The notes beneath the pieces are model-generated. The model was not told where the DNA came from. It saw only the letters and a program-made list of their open reading frames with translations, and did no database searches. From Tamlana crocina (GTDB lineage Bacteria; Bacteroidota; Bacteroidia; Flavobacteriales; Flavobacteriaceae), in contig CP158972.1 in assembly GCA_040429635.1 (NCBI GenBank), positions 2,242,001-2,306,000 of the forward strand: 64,000 bases of DNA, in the 5' to 3' direction. Shown here in pieces: positions 58,287 to 64,000 of the stretch (within the stretch, counting starts at the first letter, position 1; each line of letters begins with the position of its first letter). The position numbers and the translations under genes are program-made.

Positions 58287-58330
58287 TAAAATATAGACAC
58301 TATCCCGTAAAGTGTGTAAGTTATAAATCG

Positions 58331-58364
58331 AGGGTTTGGCTTTTTTAAAGTTGAACCCTTTTTT
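58331..58364 (+). terminator. Possible terminator inside the IS end, after the capsule block
   Basis: AGGGTT at 58331-58336 pairs with AACCCT at 58354-58359, followed by TTTTT on the plus strand. It lies 45 bp past the capK-like stop and may end the capsule transcript as well as insulate the IS. The stem is short and the loop 17 bases. Confidence 0.4.
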
Positions 58365-59569
58365 CAAATATAGTCAAAAACTGGTTTAGAATAATGCCCC
58401 AGTTCCTAATGGGCATCGACCATTTTTTGGTAGCCTCTCGAAGGGCTAAAAAAGTGGACTTCATAACGGCTTCGTCTGTTGGGAAGGAGAGTTTGTTCTT
58501 GGTGTATTTCCTGATTTTTCCATTAAGGTTTTCAATAAGGTTGGTGGTGTAAATGATTTTTCTGATTTCTAAAGGAAATTCAAAGAAAGCGGTAAGTTCT
58601 TCCCAGTTATCTTCCCTGCTTTTGATAGCGTAAGAGTACTTGTGTTTCCATTTCTGGGCAAAGTCATCCAGAGCGGCTTTTGCTGCACTTTTGGTGGGTG
58701 CATCGTAGATGTTTTTCATATCCTTTGCAAACGCCTTCTTATCTTTCCACACCACATAGCGGCAAGCGTTGCGAATCTGGTGCACCACGCAGATTTGGGT
58801 CTTGGATTCAGGAAAAACGTTTTTAATGGTATCGGTAAAACCGTTAAGATTATCTGCGGCCGTGATAAGCAGATCCTGAACGCCCCTGGCCTTTATATCG
58901 GTCAGGACACCCATCCAAAAGGCTGCCTGATTCATTCTTGCCAAGCCATAGCCCCAAGACTTCCTTTTTACCGTCCCTGCGCAGTCCCACGGCAATGTAC
59001 ATGGTCTTGTTGATGACCTTGGAGTTCTCCCGAACTTTGAACACAATACCGTCCATCCAAGTAATCAGATATACAGGCTCCTATGGTCTGTTTTGCCAGG
59101 CAACAATATCATTGGTCACTTTATCTGTGATACGTGATATGGTGGATGTGGACACATCAAAACCATAGACTTCACGGATCTGTTCTTCGATATCGGAATT
59201 GCTCATGCCCTTGGCGTAAAGGCTGATAATGACGTTTTCTATGCCATCGACCATATTGGCACGTTTGGGCACCAACATGGGGTTGAATGACGCTTCTCTG
59301 TCCCTGGGCACTTTGATACTGGCCTCTCCCAAAGAGGTCTTTACCTTTTTTGAGGCGTAACCATTGCGGGTATTGCTGTTATCGGATTGTTGTTGCCTTT
59401 CATAATCCAGATGCGCATCAATCTCGCCTTCAAGCATCTTTTCGATGCCCCGCTTTTGGATGGATTTTAGAAAGGAGGTCAGTTCGTCTCCTGTTTTGAA
59501 CTGTTTTAAAAAGTCGTCGTTTAGAAAACCTTCTTTCTTTATGAGTATGTAAATTTTAAAAATAAACAA
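58345..59569 (-). pseudogene. IS256-family transposase, broken by a stop and a frameshift
   Basis: N-terminal part 59569-59081 carries LEGEIDAHLDYERQQQSDNS, STSTISRITDKV. An in-frame TAG at 59081-59083 (probably from TTG, Leu) follows WQNRP; the same frame then continues [18 protein letters not shown]. Near 58933 one extra base shifts the frame to [30 protein letters not shown] and [13 protein letters not shown]. The three DDE residues are the Asp of WMDG, the Asp of AADN and the Glu of NLIEN. The likely start is the TTG at 59569, or an ATA further in that replaces the usual ATG. Confidence 0.88.
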
Positions 59570-59570
59570 A

Positions 59571-59600
59571 AAATATCGAGGGTTGCAACCCTCGATATTT
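59571..59600. repeat. 30-bp perfect palindrome at the IS terminus
   Basis: 15-bp arms with no loop, centred between 59585 and 59586, reading AAATATCGAGGGTTG and its complement. The inner part of the right IS end, just upstream of the transposase start. It may act as a terminator that blocks read-in, or as a transposase site. Confidence 0.6.
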
Positions 59601-59975
59601 AAACTTTACACACTTTGTGAGATACTACCTTAATTTTATTTTTTTAGGATGATTAATTGGATACAATCAAACAGGTTCTATTTTACCATGATTTTTTCGG
59701 TAAAGATTCCTTTATTAGTTTCGATTTCTATAAAATAAATGCCTTTAACTAAAGTATTTAAATCCAAACTTAATTTCTTCTCAACGAAAACTAATTGTCC
59801 ATAAGCAGAATAGCCTTTTACCTGTTTAAGTAAAAGCCCATTATTTAATACAATATTCAAAACATCTTCAACTGGATTTGGATATAACTTATAATCCTTC
59901 TTTTCAACTTGATTCATACTCAATAAGGCATTATCGTCAGATTGTTTTTTCTGCGAAACTTTATTAGATACAACG

Positions 59976-60539
59976 CAATCGTTGCTGTAGCCCGTGCCCG
60001 AATCCTTGTTCGGCCAGTTCGATGTGCTGTAGGAAGCGTTGTCCACCTCGATGCACGAAAGCTCCGGGTTGTTCCTTGCATCAAAATAAGTGAAGTTGGC
60101 GTTGTTGCCGTTCTTCACGTTTAGAGCCGTCAGGGCATTGCTCCCGCACGACAGGGCCCTTAGCGATGGTGCCGCACTTAGGTCGAGGACAGAAATATCG
60201 TTTAGGTAACAAGACAGCACCTTTAATTTGGCAGCCCCACTGAGGTCAAGGTCGGTGAGCTTGTTGTTGTGGCAGTACAAATATTCAAGCAAAGCGTTGC
60301 CCGAAAGGTCCAGAACGCCGAGTCCATTGGAACCACAGGACAGCGTGACAAGCGAGACAAAGTCCTCTATTCCGGTCATGTCCGATATGCCCCTGTCCGA
60401 AACGTTAAGCGTGGTAACTCCACTGATATTGGCGGTAACCACGTAATCGTCCAAAACATCATCATGCCCCAAATCTATAAGAGCCTGCTCAAAATTGTTA
60501 TTGGGGACGTAAGTAAGGCCTGGGGAACTTCCTCCTTCA
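59976..60539 (-). repeat. 564-bp tandem repeat, copy 1 (module 4, C-terminal)
   Basis: First plus-strand copy, beginning CAATCGTTGCTGTAGCCCGT. It differs from the next copy by one base that I can see (GGCAGCCCC against GGCGGCCCC near 60232). The length is divisible by three, so gain or loss keeps the frame. Confidence 0.95.
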
Positions 60540-61103
60540 CAATCGTTGCTGTAGCCCGTGCCCGAATCCTTGTTCGGCCAGTTCGATGTGCTGTAGGAAG
60601 CGTTGTCCACCTCGATGCACGAAAGCTCCGGGTTGTTCCTTGCATCAAAATAAGTGAAGTTGGCGTTGTTGCCGTTCTTCACGTTTAGAGCCGTCAGGGC
60701 ATTGCTCCCGCACGACAGGGCCCTTAGCGATGGTGCCGCACTTAGGTCGAGGACAGAAATATCGTTTAGGTAACAAGACAGCACCTTTAATTTGGCGGCC
60801 CCACTGAGGTCAAGGTCGGTGAGCTTGTTGTTGTGGCAGTACAAATATTCAAGCAAAGCGTTGCCCGAAAGGTCCAGAACGCCGAGTCCATTGGAACCAC
60901 AGGACAGCGTGACAAGCGAGACAAAGTCCTCTATTCCGGTCATGTCCGATATGCCCCTGTCCGAAACGTTAAGCGTGGTAACTCCACTGATATTGGCGGT
61001 AACCACGTAATCGTCCAAAACATCATCATGCCCCAAATCTATAAGAGCCTGCTCAAAATTGTTATTGGGGACGTAAGTAAGGCCTGGGGAACTTCCTCCT
61101 TCA
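60540..61103 (-). repeat. 564-bp tandem repeat, copy 2 (module 3)
   Basis: Same unit, starting with the same CAATCGTTGC sequence exactly 564 bp later. Clearly GC-richer than neighbouring DNA. Confidence 0.95.
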
Positions 61104-61666
61104 CAATCGTTGCTGTAGCCCGTGCCCGAATCCTTGTTCGGCCAGTTCGATGTGCTGTAGGAAGCGTTGTCCACCTCGATGCACGAAAGCTCCGGGTTGT
61201 TCCTTGCATCAAAATAAGTGAAGTTGGCGTTGTTGCCGTTCTTCACGTTTAGAGCCGTCAGGGCATTGCTCCCGCACGACAGGGCCCTTAGCGATGGTGC
61301 CGCACTTAGGTCGAGGACAGAAATATCGTTTAGGTAACAAGACAGCACCTTTAATTTGGCGGCCCCACTGAGGTCAAGGTCGGTGAGCTTGTTGTTGTGG
61401 CAGTACAAATATTCAAGCAAAGCGTTGCCCGAAAGTCCAGAACGCCGAGTCCATTGGAACCACAGGACAGCGTGACAAGCGAGACAAAGTCCTCTATTCC
61501 GGTCATGTCCGATATGCCCCTGTCCGAAACGTTAAGCGTGGTAACTCCACTGATATTGGCGGTAACCACGTAATCGTCCAAAACATCATCATGCCCCAAA
61601 TCTATAAGAGCCTGCTCAAAATTGTTATTGGGGACGTAAGTAAGGCCTGGGGAACTTCCTCCTTCA
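61104..61666 (-). repeat. 564-bp tandem repeat, copy 3 with 1-bp deletion (module 2)
   Basis: 563 bp long because one G is missing at about 61435; otherwise it matches copy 2. This deletion causes the frameshift in the LRR gene. Confidence 0.95.
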
Positions 61667-61818
61667 CAATCGTTGCTGTAGCCCGTGCCCGAATCCTTGT
61701 TCGGCCAGTTCGATGTGCTGTAGGAAGCGTTGTCCACCTCGATGCACGAAAGCTCCGGGTTGTTCCTTGCATCAAAATAAGTGAAGTTGGCGTTGTTGCC
61801 GTTCTTCACGTTTAGAGC
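61667..61818 (-). repeat. Partial copy of the 564-bp repeat (end of module 1)
   Basis: About 152 bp identical to the repeat unit, ending abruptly at GAGCCGTCA (61818); beyond it the sequence becomes AT-rich and no longer matches. This marks the edge of the homogenised segment. Confidence 0.9.
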
Positions 61819-62331
61819 CGTCAAATTATTATAAGAGCAATTTAATTTAGTTATTGAGTTATTACTATTTAAATTTAAACTGCTAAGGCTATTATAATCA
61901 CAATACAAAGTACTCAAAAGATTATTGCTAATTTCTAAATCATCAACGTTGTTAAAACCACAATCCAAATAAGTTAAAGTAGTAGTGTTATTATCAAATT
62001 CCAAATCACTAATTTTATTAAAAGCACACCGCAACTCTTCTAAAGATGTATTAGAGGTTAAATTTAAAGTTTGAATATCATTAAAATTACAGTTCAGTTT
62101 TTTTAAGGCAACAAATGCTTCTATACCAATTAAATTTGAAATTTCTTTAGAACTAACATCTAAATACGTAATTCTACTGATATTATTTGTGGACACATAA
62201 TTGTCCAATATATTATCATAACCTAATTCTATTAAGGCCTGTTCAAAATTATCGTCAGGGACATAGGTTTGTTGAGAGAATAGAACACCACTAAAAAGCA
62301 GGGTCATTAAAAGAAAATAAGGCTTTTTCAT

Positions 62332-62778: not shown

Positions 62779-64000
62779 TTATTTGTTGTTTTTCAGTTGT
62801 ATATTTTTTGAATTAACAACGTTTATATCTGTATTGATTGTTGAGTTTTGAATAGTAATATTTTCACATCCATCAATATTATTTGCTTTATTGTCTGACG
62901 ACCTAAAGCTGCACTCATCAAAAATAATATTCTTTGATGAATCTGCAATTAAATCATATAAGTCAATTGGCCTTCGAGTAACATCAACTTCTTCATTTCT
63001 TATATTAACATTAACTATGTCTGCCCCTCTTGACACATACCCAAAACTAGTAGGCAAATCTGTATTTAACTTATTATTATAAATTTCGGCGCCATGCAAT
63101 TTATTTCCGAGAATAATACCAGTTTTAAACTCAGTAAGATTATTATCGTGGACATCATAATTATCACCAGCTAAAGTTATACCATTTTTATAACCATTAA
63201 TTTTATTTCCATAAATTTGATAATTTCTATTGAATTCATCTCCAAATGGATCTAATCTTGATTTAAATATCATGGCGTGCTCAAATGGTTGGCCGTTTTC
63301 AATTCTTGCTTCAAAAGTATTGTTTCTAACTACTATGTCGTGAGAGGCTATGTTGGTTACCATGGAGTCAAAATAATTCTCTTCAACCGTTACAAATGAG
63401 CATGTAAAAAAAACAATATCACCAACGGCATTACCTTTAAAAGTGTTGCCCCGTAAGGTTACGTTTTCAATCTTTTCATACTCTTTAAGTGTACCATCAT
63501 CTTCTCTAACTCGCCAAGCCTCAAAACTAATCCCTTGTCTAGGCCATGTTCCCGCTGAACTATAATCAACTCCAGAAGGGTTCTCCCCTAGTGCCGTATT
63601 GATGATCTGACAGTTTTCAACAAGAATTCCGTCACCATCAAGAATACTTAAGCCATTCCTTCTAGAAGCATCAACAATACAGTTTCTTACAGTTACATTT
63701 TCAGAAATAACAGCATCACCAGGAGAACCATCTTCAGCCCTAATGGTACTACCATGAACAACAAAACCATCTCCAGCGCCGTTAGAAATTTTTATACCCT
63801 CTAACAAAATATTTTTGCCCCCTGAAACATGCGTAACATGACCCCAATCGTGGGAATAATAAGTTTTTCCGTACAAATCAACTACAGGAGTATAATCATG
63901 CTCCCAACGATCTCCTATCAAATTGCCTCCTGTGATTTTTATATTCTCTCCTTTATAAACCATTATCAAGCTATAAGCATGAGCATTTGTAGGTTGTACC
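62779..64000 (-). CDS. Right-handed parallel beta-helix repeat protein, 5'-truncated by window edge
   Basis: The reading frame stays open to base 64000 (upstream residues QPTNAHAYSLIMVYKG), so the apparent start at 63969, a TTG, is not the true start. About 406 residues are visible. They consist of short repeats with N-rich turns such as ENVTLRGNTFKGNAVGDIVF, FVTVEENYFDSMVTN, SHDIVVRNNTFEA and KNIIFDECSFRSSDNK, the pattern of pectate-lyase-like parallel beta-helices. It may be a secreted polysaccharide-active protein, but no catalytic signature can be assigned and there is no T9SS domain at its C-terminus. Base composition is AT-rich like the surrounding genome. Confidence 0.82.
   Translation of the reverse strand, partial: VQPTNAHAYSLIMVYKGENIKITGGNLIGDRWEHDYTPVVDLYGKTYYSHDWGHVTHVSGGKNILLEGIKISNGAGDGFVVHGSTIRAEDGSPGDAVISENVTVRNCIVDASRRNGLSILDGDGILVENCQIINTALGENPSGVDYSSAGTWPRQGISFEAWRVREDDGTLKEYEKIENVTLRGNTFKGNAVGDIVFFTCSFVTVEENYFDSMVTNIASHDIVVRNNTFEARIENGQPFEHAMIFKSRLDPFGDEFNRNYQIYGNKINGYKNGITLAGDNYDVHDNNLTEFKTGIILGNKLHGAEIYNNKLNTDLPTSFGYVSRGADIVNVNIRNEEVDVTRRPIDLYDLIADSSKNIIFDECSFRSSDNKANNIDGCENITIQNSTINTDINVVNSKNIQLKNNK

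Follow-up and report, generated by a model that had tools for sequence, protein, structure and literature searches.

In the window, which is the 64,000-nucleotide stretch of Tamlana crocina DNA analysed here (genome G000), a gene for an LRR protein carries tandem units that are almost identical to each other and is split by a single missing base. This raises the question of what keeps the units alike, and whether the break is a genetic switch or an error of the assembly. The features concerned are as follows.

59678..62331, minus strand: gene for an LRR protein with a T9SS sorting tail, in two frames in the assembly (reading frames; Pfam LRR_4 and Por_Secre_tail)
61351-62331, minus strand: frame of 326 aa
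59678-61420, minus strand: frame of 580 aa
61824..62331, minus strand: N-terminus and head of the first module (N1), AT-rich (GC 26%) and diverged from the units
61667..61823, minus strand: partial unit forming the tail of the first module (N1), 157 bp, identical to the units
61104..61666, minus strand: unit copy 3, first in reading order, 563 bp, short by one base
61435..61436, minus strand: place of the missing base, a probable assembly artefact (unit comparison, sister locus, rRNA operons)
60540..61103, minus strand: unit copy 2, 564 bp
59976..60539, minus strand: unit copy 1, last in reading order, 564 bp, with a private substitution at 60233
59684..59887, minus strand: T9SS C-terminal sorting domain, residues 512-579 of the 580-aa frame (Por_Secre_tail)
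58290..59645, minus strand: insertion sequence (Transposase_mut, two broken frames), outside the array
62779..64000, minus strand: upstream beta-helix gene, continuing past the window end

In reading order, the gene encodes a hydrophobic N-terminus (the stretch after the ATG, judged by eye), N1, the last 157 bp of which are unit sequence, three units and the T9SS sorting tail. Both reading frames matched Pfam LRR_4, and Por_Secre_tail was found in the downstream 580-aa frame (E 3e-11, 43.9 bits against a cut-off of 27). The same domain also scored above 27 in two further genomes, G166 (51.3 bits) and G249 (46.8 bits). The structure predicted for the unit was an LRR solenoid (pLDDT 85.1, pTM 0.82), and LRR structures were among its best Foldseek matches. 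Across its head, N1 shared 48% amino acid identity with the unit of the same gene. The sequence-only reading had proposed an exported surface protein with a T9SS tail and 188 residues of LRR-like sequence per unit. The latter held, as the unit is 188 residues long and the frames match LRR_4, and the former is supported at the domain level by LRR_4 and Por_Secre_tail. Judged by these domains, the gene product is probably an exported LRR protein displayed on the cell surface.

Comparison of the units bore out the three near-identical copies (564, 564, and 563 bp) and the partial fourth that had been reported; the end of the partial copy lies at 61823 and not at 61818, the earlier figure, which falls short by 5 bp. 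A single position (60233 A versus 60797 G) separates copies 1 and 2, the sole difference between copies 2 and 3 is one base absent from a GG at about 61435-61436, and the partial unit is identical to the full units over all of its 157 bp. A DNA search found no further copy of the unit elsewhere in the 3.75-Mb single-contig genome. Tandem Repeats Finder, with 500 as the longest period searched, returned no rows for the window, and the window had no Rfam match at the gathering threshold. When 800 kb from four genomes (200 kb each) were surveyed for periods of 45-1500, 0 arrays of at least 95% identity over 200 bp were found; arrays of such near-identical large units are rare.

In a draw of 397 genomes of the family, eight had a match to the array gene at E <= 1e-40, with four matches each in G000, G166, and G249 and one each in the five others. 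At this threshold, arrays of the gene were present in 3/397 family genomes. A profile of the three units matched 17 of 395 genomes of the order at E <= 1e-42, and among the loci of this draw, taken with short flanks, near-identical unit arrays were seen only in G000 and G166, G249 not being among the matches. Searching 149 relatives each of G249 and G166, sets that overlap the other draws, added none at E <= 1e-38. In the phage and plasmid collections, 12 and 11 records matched, respectively, every one with less than 60% identity. All three array-bearing genomes are single-contig assemblies. A sister locus, L075 (Bacteroidia bacterium Co_bin.288), is 95% identical over 6.9 kb. As L075 suggests, arrays of this kind may be broken in short-read assemblies, and the rarity of the array may thus be overstated.

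The orthologues in G166 (878 aa) and G249 (867 aa), which represent two other genera, share the plan of N1, three similar units, and a sorting tail, with unit periods of 573 bp in G166 and 564 bp in G249. The Tamlana crocina unit shares 57% identity with the units of G249 and likewise with those of G166. The G249 units show five differences outside the ragged unit end, each confined to the last unit, and two adjoin that end. In G166, 21 places in the first 259 bp distinguish the first unit from the other two, and nine places further on, ahead of the ragged end, distinguish the last unit; that the G166 units are less alike than the others counts against tight homogenisation. The N1 heads of the three genomes are 59-65% identical to each other and the unit heads 54-62%, while N1 heads and unit heads are 48-58% identical. 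The two kinds of heads were split by one branch in 96% of bootstrap trees, and all 12 modules of the array gene, the N1 of the sister locus included, formed one clade among 34 rows (95/87). The N1 tails match their own units at 100% of amino acids in G000 and G249 and at 60% in G166, and the edge of this identity lies at or within a few codons of a conserved L(N/D)(V/I)(K/R)NG motif.

Units that are alike within a lineage and diverged between lineages are what we read as concerted evolution, and several units would already have been present in the ancestor. The array and the homogenisation of its units are well supported. Recent amplification or continuing gene conversion had been suggested from the Tamlana crocina array, and this gained support from the orthologues, which repeat the pattern. 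Because two other genera carry the same array pattern, repeated or continuing homogenisation appears likelier than one recent event. The protein would thus consist of a first module that has diverged and a 188-aa LRR domain in three copies, and exchange or gene conversion among the units would maintain their likeness within each lineage while the units of different lineages diverge. Repeated amplification would look like conversion, and it is from the pattern of identity that we infer conversion itself.

The units also differ from the rest of the gene in base composition, a feature that the sequence-only reading did not contain: their GC is 51% as compared to 26% and 28% in the two ends of the gene. 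In G000, GC3 was 0.628 in two units (376 codons) and 0.225 in the N1 head and tail (267 codons), and at four-fold sites the values were 0.61 and 0.24, respectively. The GC3 of the units was likewise raised in G249 (0.620 versus 0.204) and in G166, the least uniform array (0.390 versus 0.245); the three contrasts come from related genes and are hence not independent. Within the array gene family, and in this family only, homogenised sequence is richer in G+C than homologous non-homogenised sequence. The jump in composition is real there. Since the units are so diverged that silent sites should be saturated, their high G+C would be maintained by some force or have been acquired separately, and not merely be inherited. 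It probably reflects some process linked to homogenisation, and the leading, still tentative, candidate for this is GC-biased gene conversion among the units, which would raise their G+C. In its fuller form, in which the LRR modules are a recombination hot zone and biased conversion lifts GC3 to about 0.63 as compared to 0.21 in N1, a module that would have ceased to recombine, in at least two, perhaps three genera of AT-rich bacteria, the proposal is somewhat doubtful. The best explanation overall, which we regard as likely, is an LRR array protein under concerted evolution with an artefactual missing base and a G+C content linked to homogenisation.

The missing base in copy 3 cuts the gene into the frames of 326 aa and 580 aa. 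To count frameshifts in single-copy genes, 200 kb of G000 were compared with 200 kb of the same-genus genome G002, using G002 frames of at least 200 aa and orthologues with at least 60% identity and at least 80% covered. None of the 67 orthologues (27,610 aa) was frameshifted in G000, and in the reverse direction the count was 0/66 in G002. Over 3.59 kb, on the other hand, the two rRNA loci of G000 show 4 mismatches and 5 indel events between them. Two of the five indel events lie in the 16S gene and are private to one copy among six, the five agreeing ones being the other G000 copy, both G002 copies, G166, and G249. In G002, which served as a control, both 16S copies were identical, and a comparison of its two rRNA loci over about 3.19 kb gave 6 mismatches and 1 gap position. 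The odd locus of G000, L232 (C1, about 932271-936796), carries the 16S indels together with a damaged tRNA-Ala that scored 49.8 versus 66.8 bits and was missed by ARAGORN. The base missing in copy 3 is present in L075, the contig of which ends within the array, so that its sequence may be a consensus of copies; the L075 genome contained only one further match, on a contig likewise starting inside the array. The frames of the array gene are open in the orthologues of G166 and G249. According to the abstract of PMC8812927, polishing fails in repeats. As indels occur in the rRNA loci whereas no single-copy orthologue is frameshifted, the base is retained in the sister locus, and the orthologous frames are open, the missing base is probably an assembly or polishing artefact of the near-identical repeats, and therefore the native array gene is probably intact.

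This bears on the sequence-only reading of a single-G deletion at 61435 that breaks the gene and could be reverted. The absent base does split the assembled frame, but the rRNA indels and L075 make a real deletion unlikely. A switch in which a real deletion in one unit turns the protein off, and recombination with a neighbour restores it or alters its length, can draw on the intact neighbouring units in the same array, on a unit length divisible by three and on the very absence of frameshifts from single-copy genes. It can also draw on the insertion sequence in the window. This mutator-family element has seven long copies (the window and L006-L011), of which three have an open stretch of 426 codons and four are broken, each of the four with an indel at one short stretch and one of them with a further indel elsewhere. 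The window copy is only 89-90% identical to the others, which should make it easy to polish, yet it is among the broken ones; a diverged copy broken at the shared stretch does not fit polishing failure neatly, and a real indel hot spot in the insertion sequence is possible. Against the switch stand the rRNA indels at sites conserved in other copies, the base kept in L075, the open frames in G166 and G249 and the number of full units, which is three in all three genera. Moreover, by inspection the site lies outside any homopolymer or short-repeat tract of the phase-variation type. We thus consider the switch improbable, and the reversible on/off function is unsupported. Of the proposed change of copy number in frame, the arithmetic stands, the unit being a multiple of three, while the change of length itself is unseen. 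Before a single-base frameshift in the near-identical repeats of a complete genome is called a switch, the rRNA operons of the same assembly should be checked.

As for the likeness of the units, one unit might have been amplified recently and independently in each lineage, without continuing conversion. The few differences among the units of G000 and of G249 would agree with this. However, the divergence in G166 is graded, with variants gathered in the edge units, and in two lineages the N1 tail has been converted to the sequence of the unit in its own gene, with the edge close to the same conserved motif; as independent amplification would also leave the G+C content unexplained, we regard it as unlikely. 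The main rival to GC-biased conversion is separate import, in which units came from G+C-richer relatives and were amplified later, their G+C being the mark of the donor. The abrupt change of GC at the array edges and the patchy occurrence of the gene speak for it. Yet N1 and unit heads divide the lineages alike and the 12 modules form one clade, which means that import would have had to hit the same part of the gene repeatedly. Neither was a G+C-rich donor found among 400 homologous stretches of at least 120 aa in 76 loci, a weak negative, as the scan behind most of these loci requires exact 8-residue peptides. A GC3 above 0.45 was reached there only by the units of G249 and by L084, L102, and L123; L084 and L123 are themselves G+C-richer (0.43 and 0.42), and L102 is at 0.37. 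Import is, on this evidence, rather unlikely. Selection on the codon use or mRNA of the repeats could lift G+C as well, and the rise is equally strong at four-fold sites, but the N1 head and the sorting tail belong to the same transcript and remain AT-rich, which leaves such selection highly improbable. GC-biased conversion stays the leading candidate.

The direction of the base changes was followed in two ways. Between the repeat and L075, eight differences have A/T in Tamlana crocina and G/C in the sister, and one is the opposite (p=0.039), with the direction unpolarised; the corresponding counts for the other 5.9 kb are 137 and 109. When the N-terminal part of the gene was added, the contrast gave a Fisher p=0.08. 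Loss of G/C on the Tamlana crocina side would give the same 8:1 pattern. Among the private variants of the last units in the three genomes, with the majority among units taken as ancestral, 11 changes were from G/C to A/T and three were the reverse, and those of the first unit of G166 numbered 9 and 10 in the two directions. These small numbers fit an AT-biased mutation, in which case the G+C of the units would need another force.

Two beta-helix genes (PF13229) adjoin the array gene in G000, L075, G166, and G249. Both lie upstream, except in G166, where there is one on each side; in G000 the second follows beyond the window, and the two genes are covered by 62779-64000 of the window and 5280-9000 of L229. 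Sugar-transferase genes are found near the array gene in G000, and similar frames, by likeness, in G166, G249, and L075. Because of the beta-helix and polysaccharide-gene neighbours, a role of the array protein in handling surface or environmental polysaccharide seems likely. The neighbouring insertion sequence was set aside as a possible driver of the array because of its position past the 3' end of the gene, outside the array.

Among known proteins, the best Foldseek match of the predicted unit was the cysteine-ladder LRR of the Listeria internalin InlJ (PDB 3bz5; E 2.4e-07, 35% identity, TM-score 0.59 by query length, rmsd 6.2). Both are exported bacterial LRR proteins, but InlJ has a single LRR domain as compared to the three near-identical ones here. 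InlJ comes from another phylum and is not known to have a T9SS tail. Large near-identical in-frame repeats that can change in number are found in Gram-positive surface proteins such as the alpha C protein, the export route and domain of which are other than those of the array protein. Within the same bacterial family, Flavobacterium psychrophilum has repetitive tandem LRR surface proteins, 16 to 23 per isolate, by the description in PMC8400371. There, whole consecutive LRR genes vary, whereas here the modules lie inside one gene; the comparison is one of descriptions.

GC-biased gene conversion in bacteria is disputed. In bacteria, recombining sequence is G+C-richer, which is given in favour of GC-biased gene conversion (PMC4450053), and in primate X palindromes the self-converting sequence is G+C-richer (PMC8981503). 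There, the contrasts are between genes or palindromes, whereas here homologous modules within one gene are contrasted and conversion is proposed. Among the matches listed from the open-access literature, no title dealt with G+C enrichment of homogenised modules inside a bacterial gene. With homogenised beside non-homogenised homologous modules, expression, chromosome position and host are constant, unlike in comparisons between genes. If the link is true, biased conversion in bacteria could be tested within single genes by means of such arrays.

As to whether homogenisation raises G+C in general, module identity was compared with the GC3 shift in 59 LRR genes with two or more modules, and the two were uncorrelated (rho -0.01, p=0.92). 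In 56 of the 59 genes the best module pair was below 80% identity, with shifts averaging +0.002 in 25 genes and -0.006 in 31, none in either group being larger than 0.155. One gene with a 92%-identical pair had a shift of -0.055, and the two genes above 95% were those of G249 (+0.224) and G166 (+0.088). Genes with HYR domains were fetched to widen the set of arrays. Among 748 frames of at least 300 codons, at least 60 homogenised (at least 95%) and at least 60 diverged (<75%) codons were present in 21, or in 19 without G166 and G249. In the 19 frames, two of which are in one locus, the mean GC3 shift was +0.044, with 12 positive and 7 negative values (Wilcoxon p=0.18); the strongest rises were +0.30, +0.23, and +0.18, and the strongest falls -0.10 and -0.12. 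The shifts of the array genes in G000 and G249, about +0.40 and +0.42, were the largest of all. A G+C rule across homogenised arrays, if any, is loose, and the link has no general support. In a post hoc comparison, the shift rose with the length of the homogenised tract (rho 0.44, p=0.059), and 7/8 genes with at least 300 homogenised codons had a positive shift versus 5/11 shorter ones (p=0.13, also post hoc), which is only a lead.

At the level of single loci, homogenised tracts of the HYR type had a GC3 higher by 0.13 to 0.30 in L268, L239, L260, L275, L273, and L281, and in L265 and L238 it was lower by 0.10 and 0.12 than in the diverged parts. Two further short arrays were noticed in other genes, with identities of 91% (L213, GC3 0.338 versus 0.325) and 94% (L226, 0.188 versus 0.139); they come from 79 loci, many of which overlap, and stand outside the count of 19 frames.
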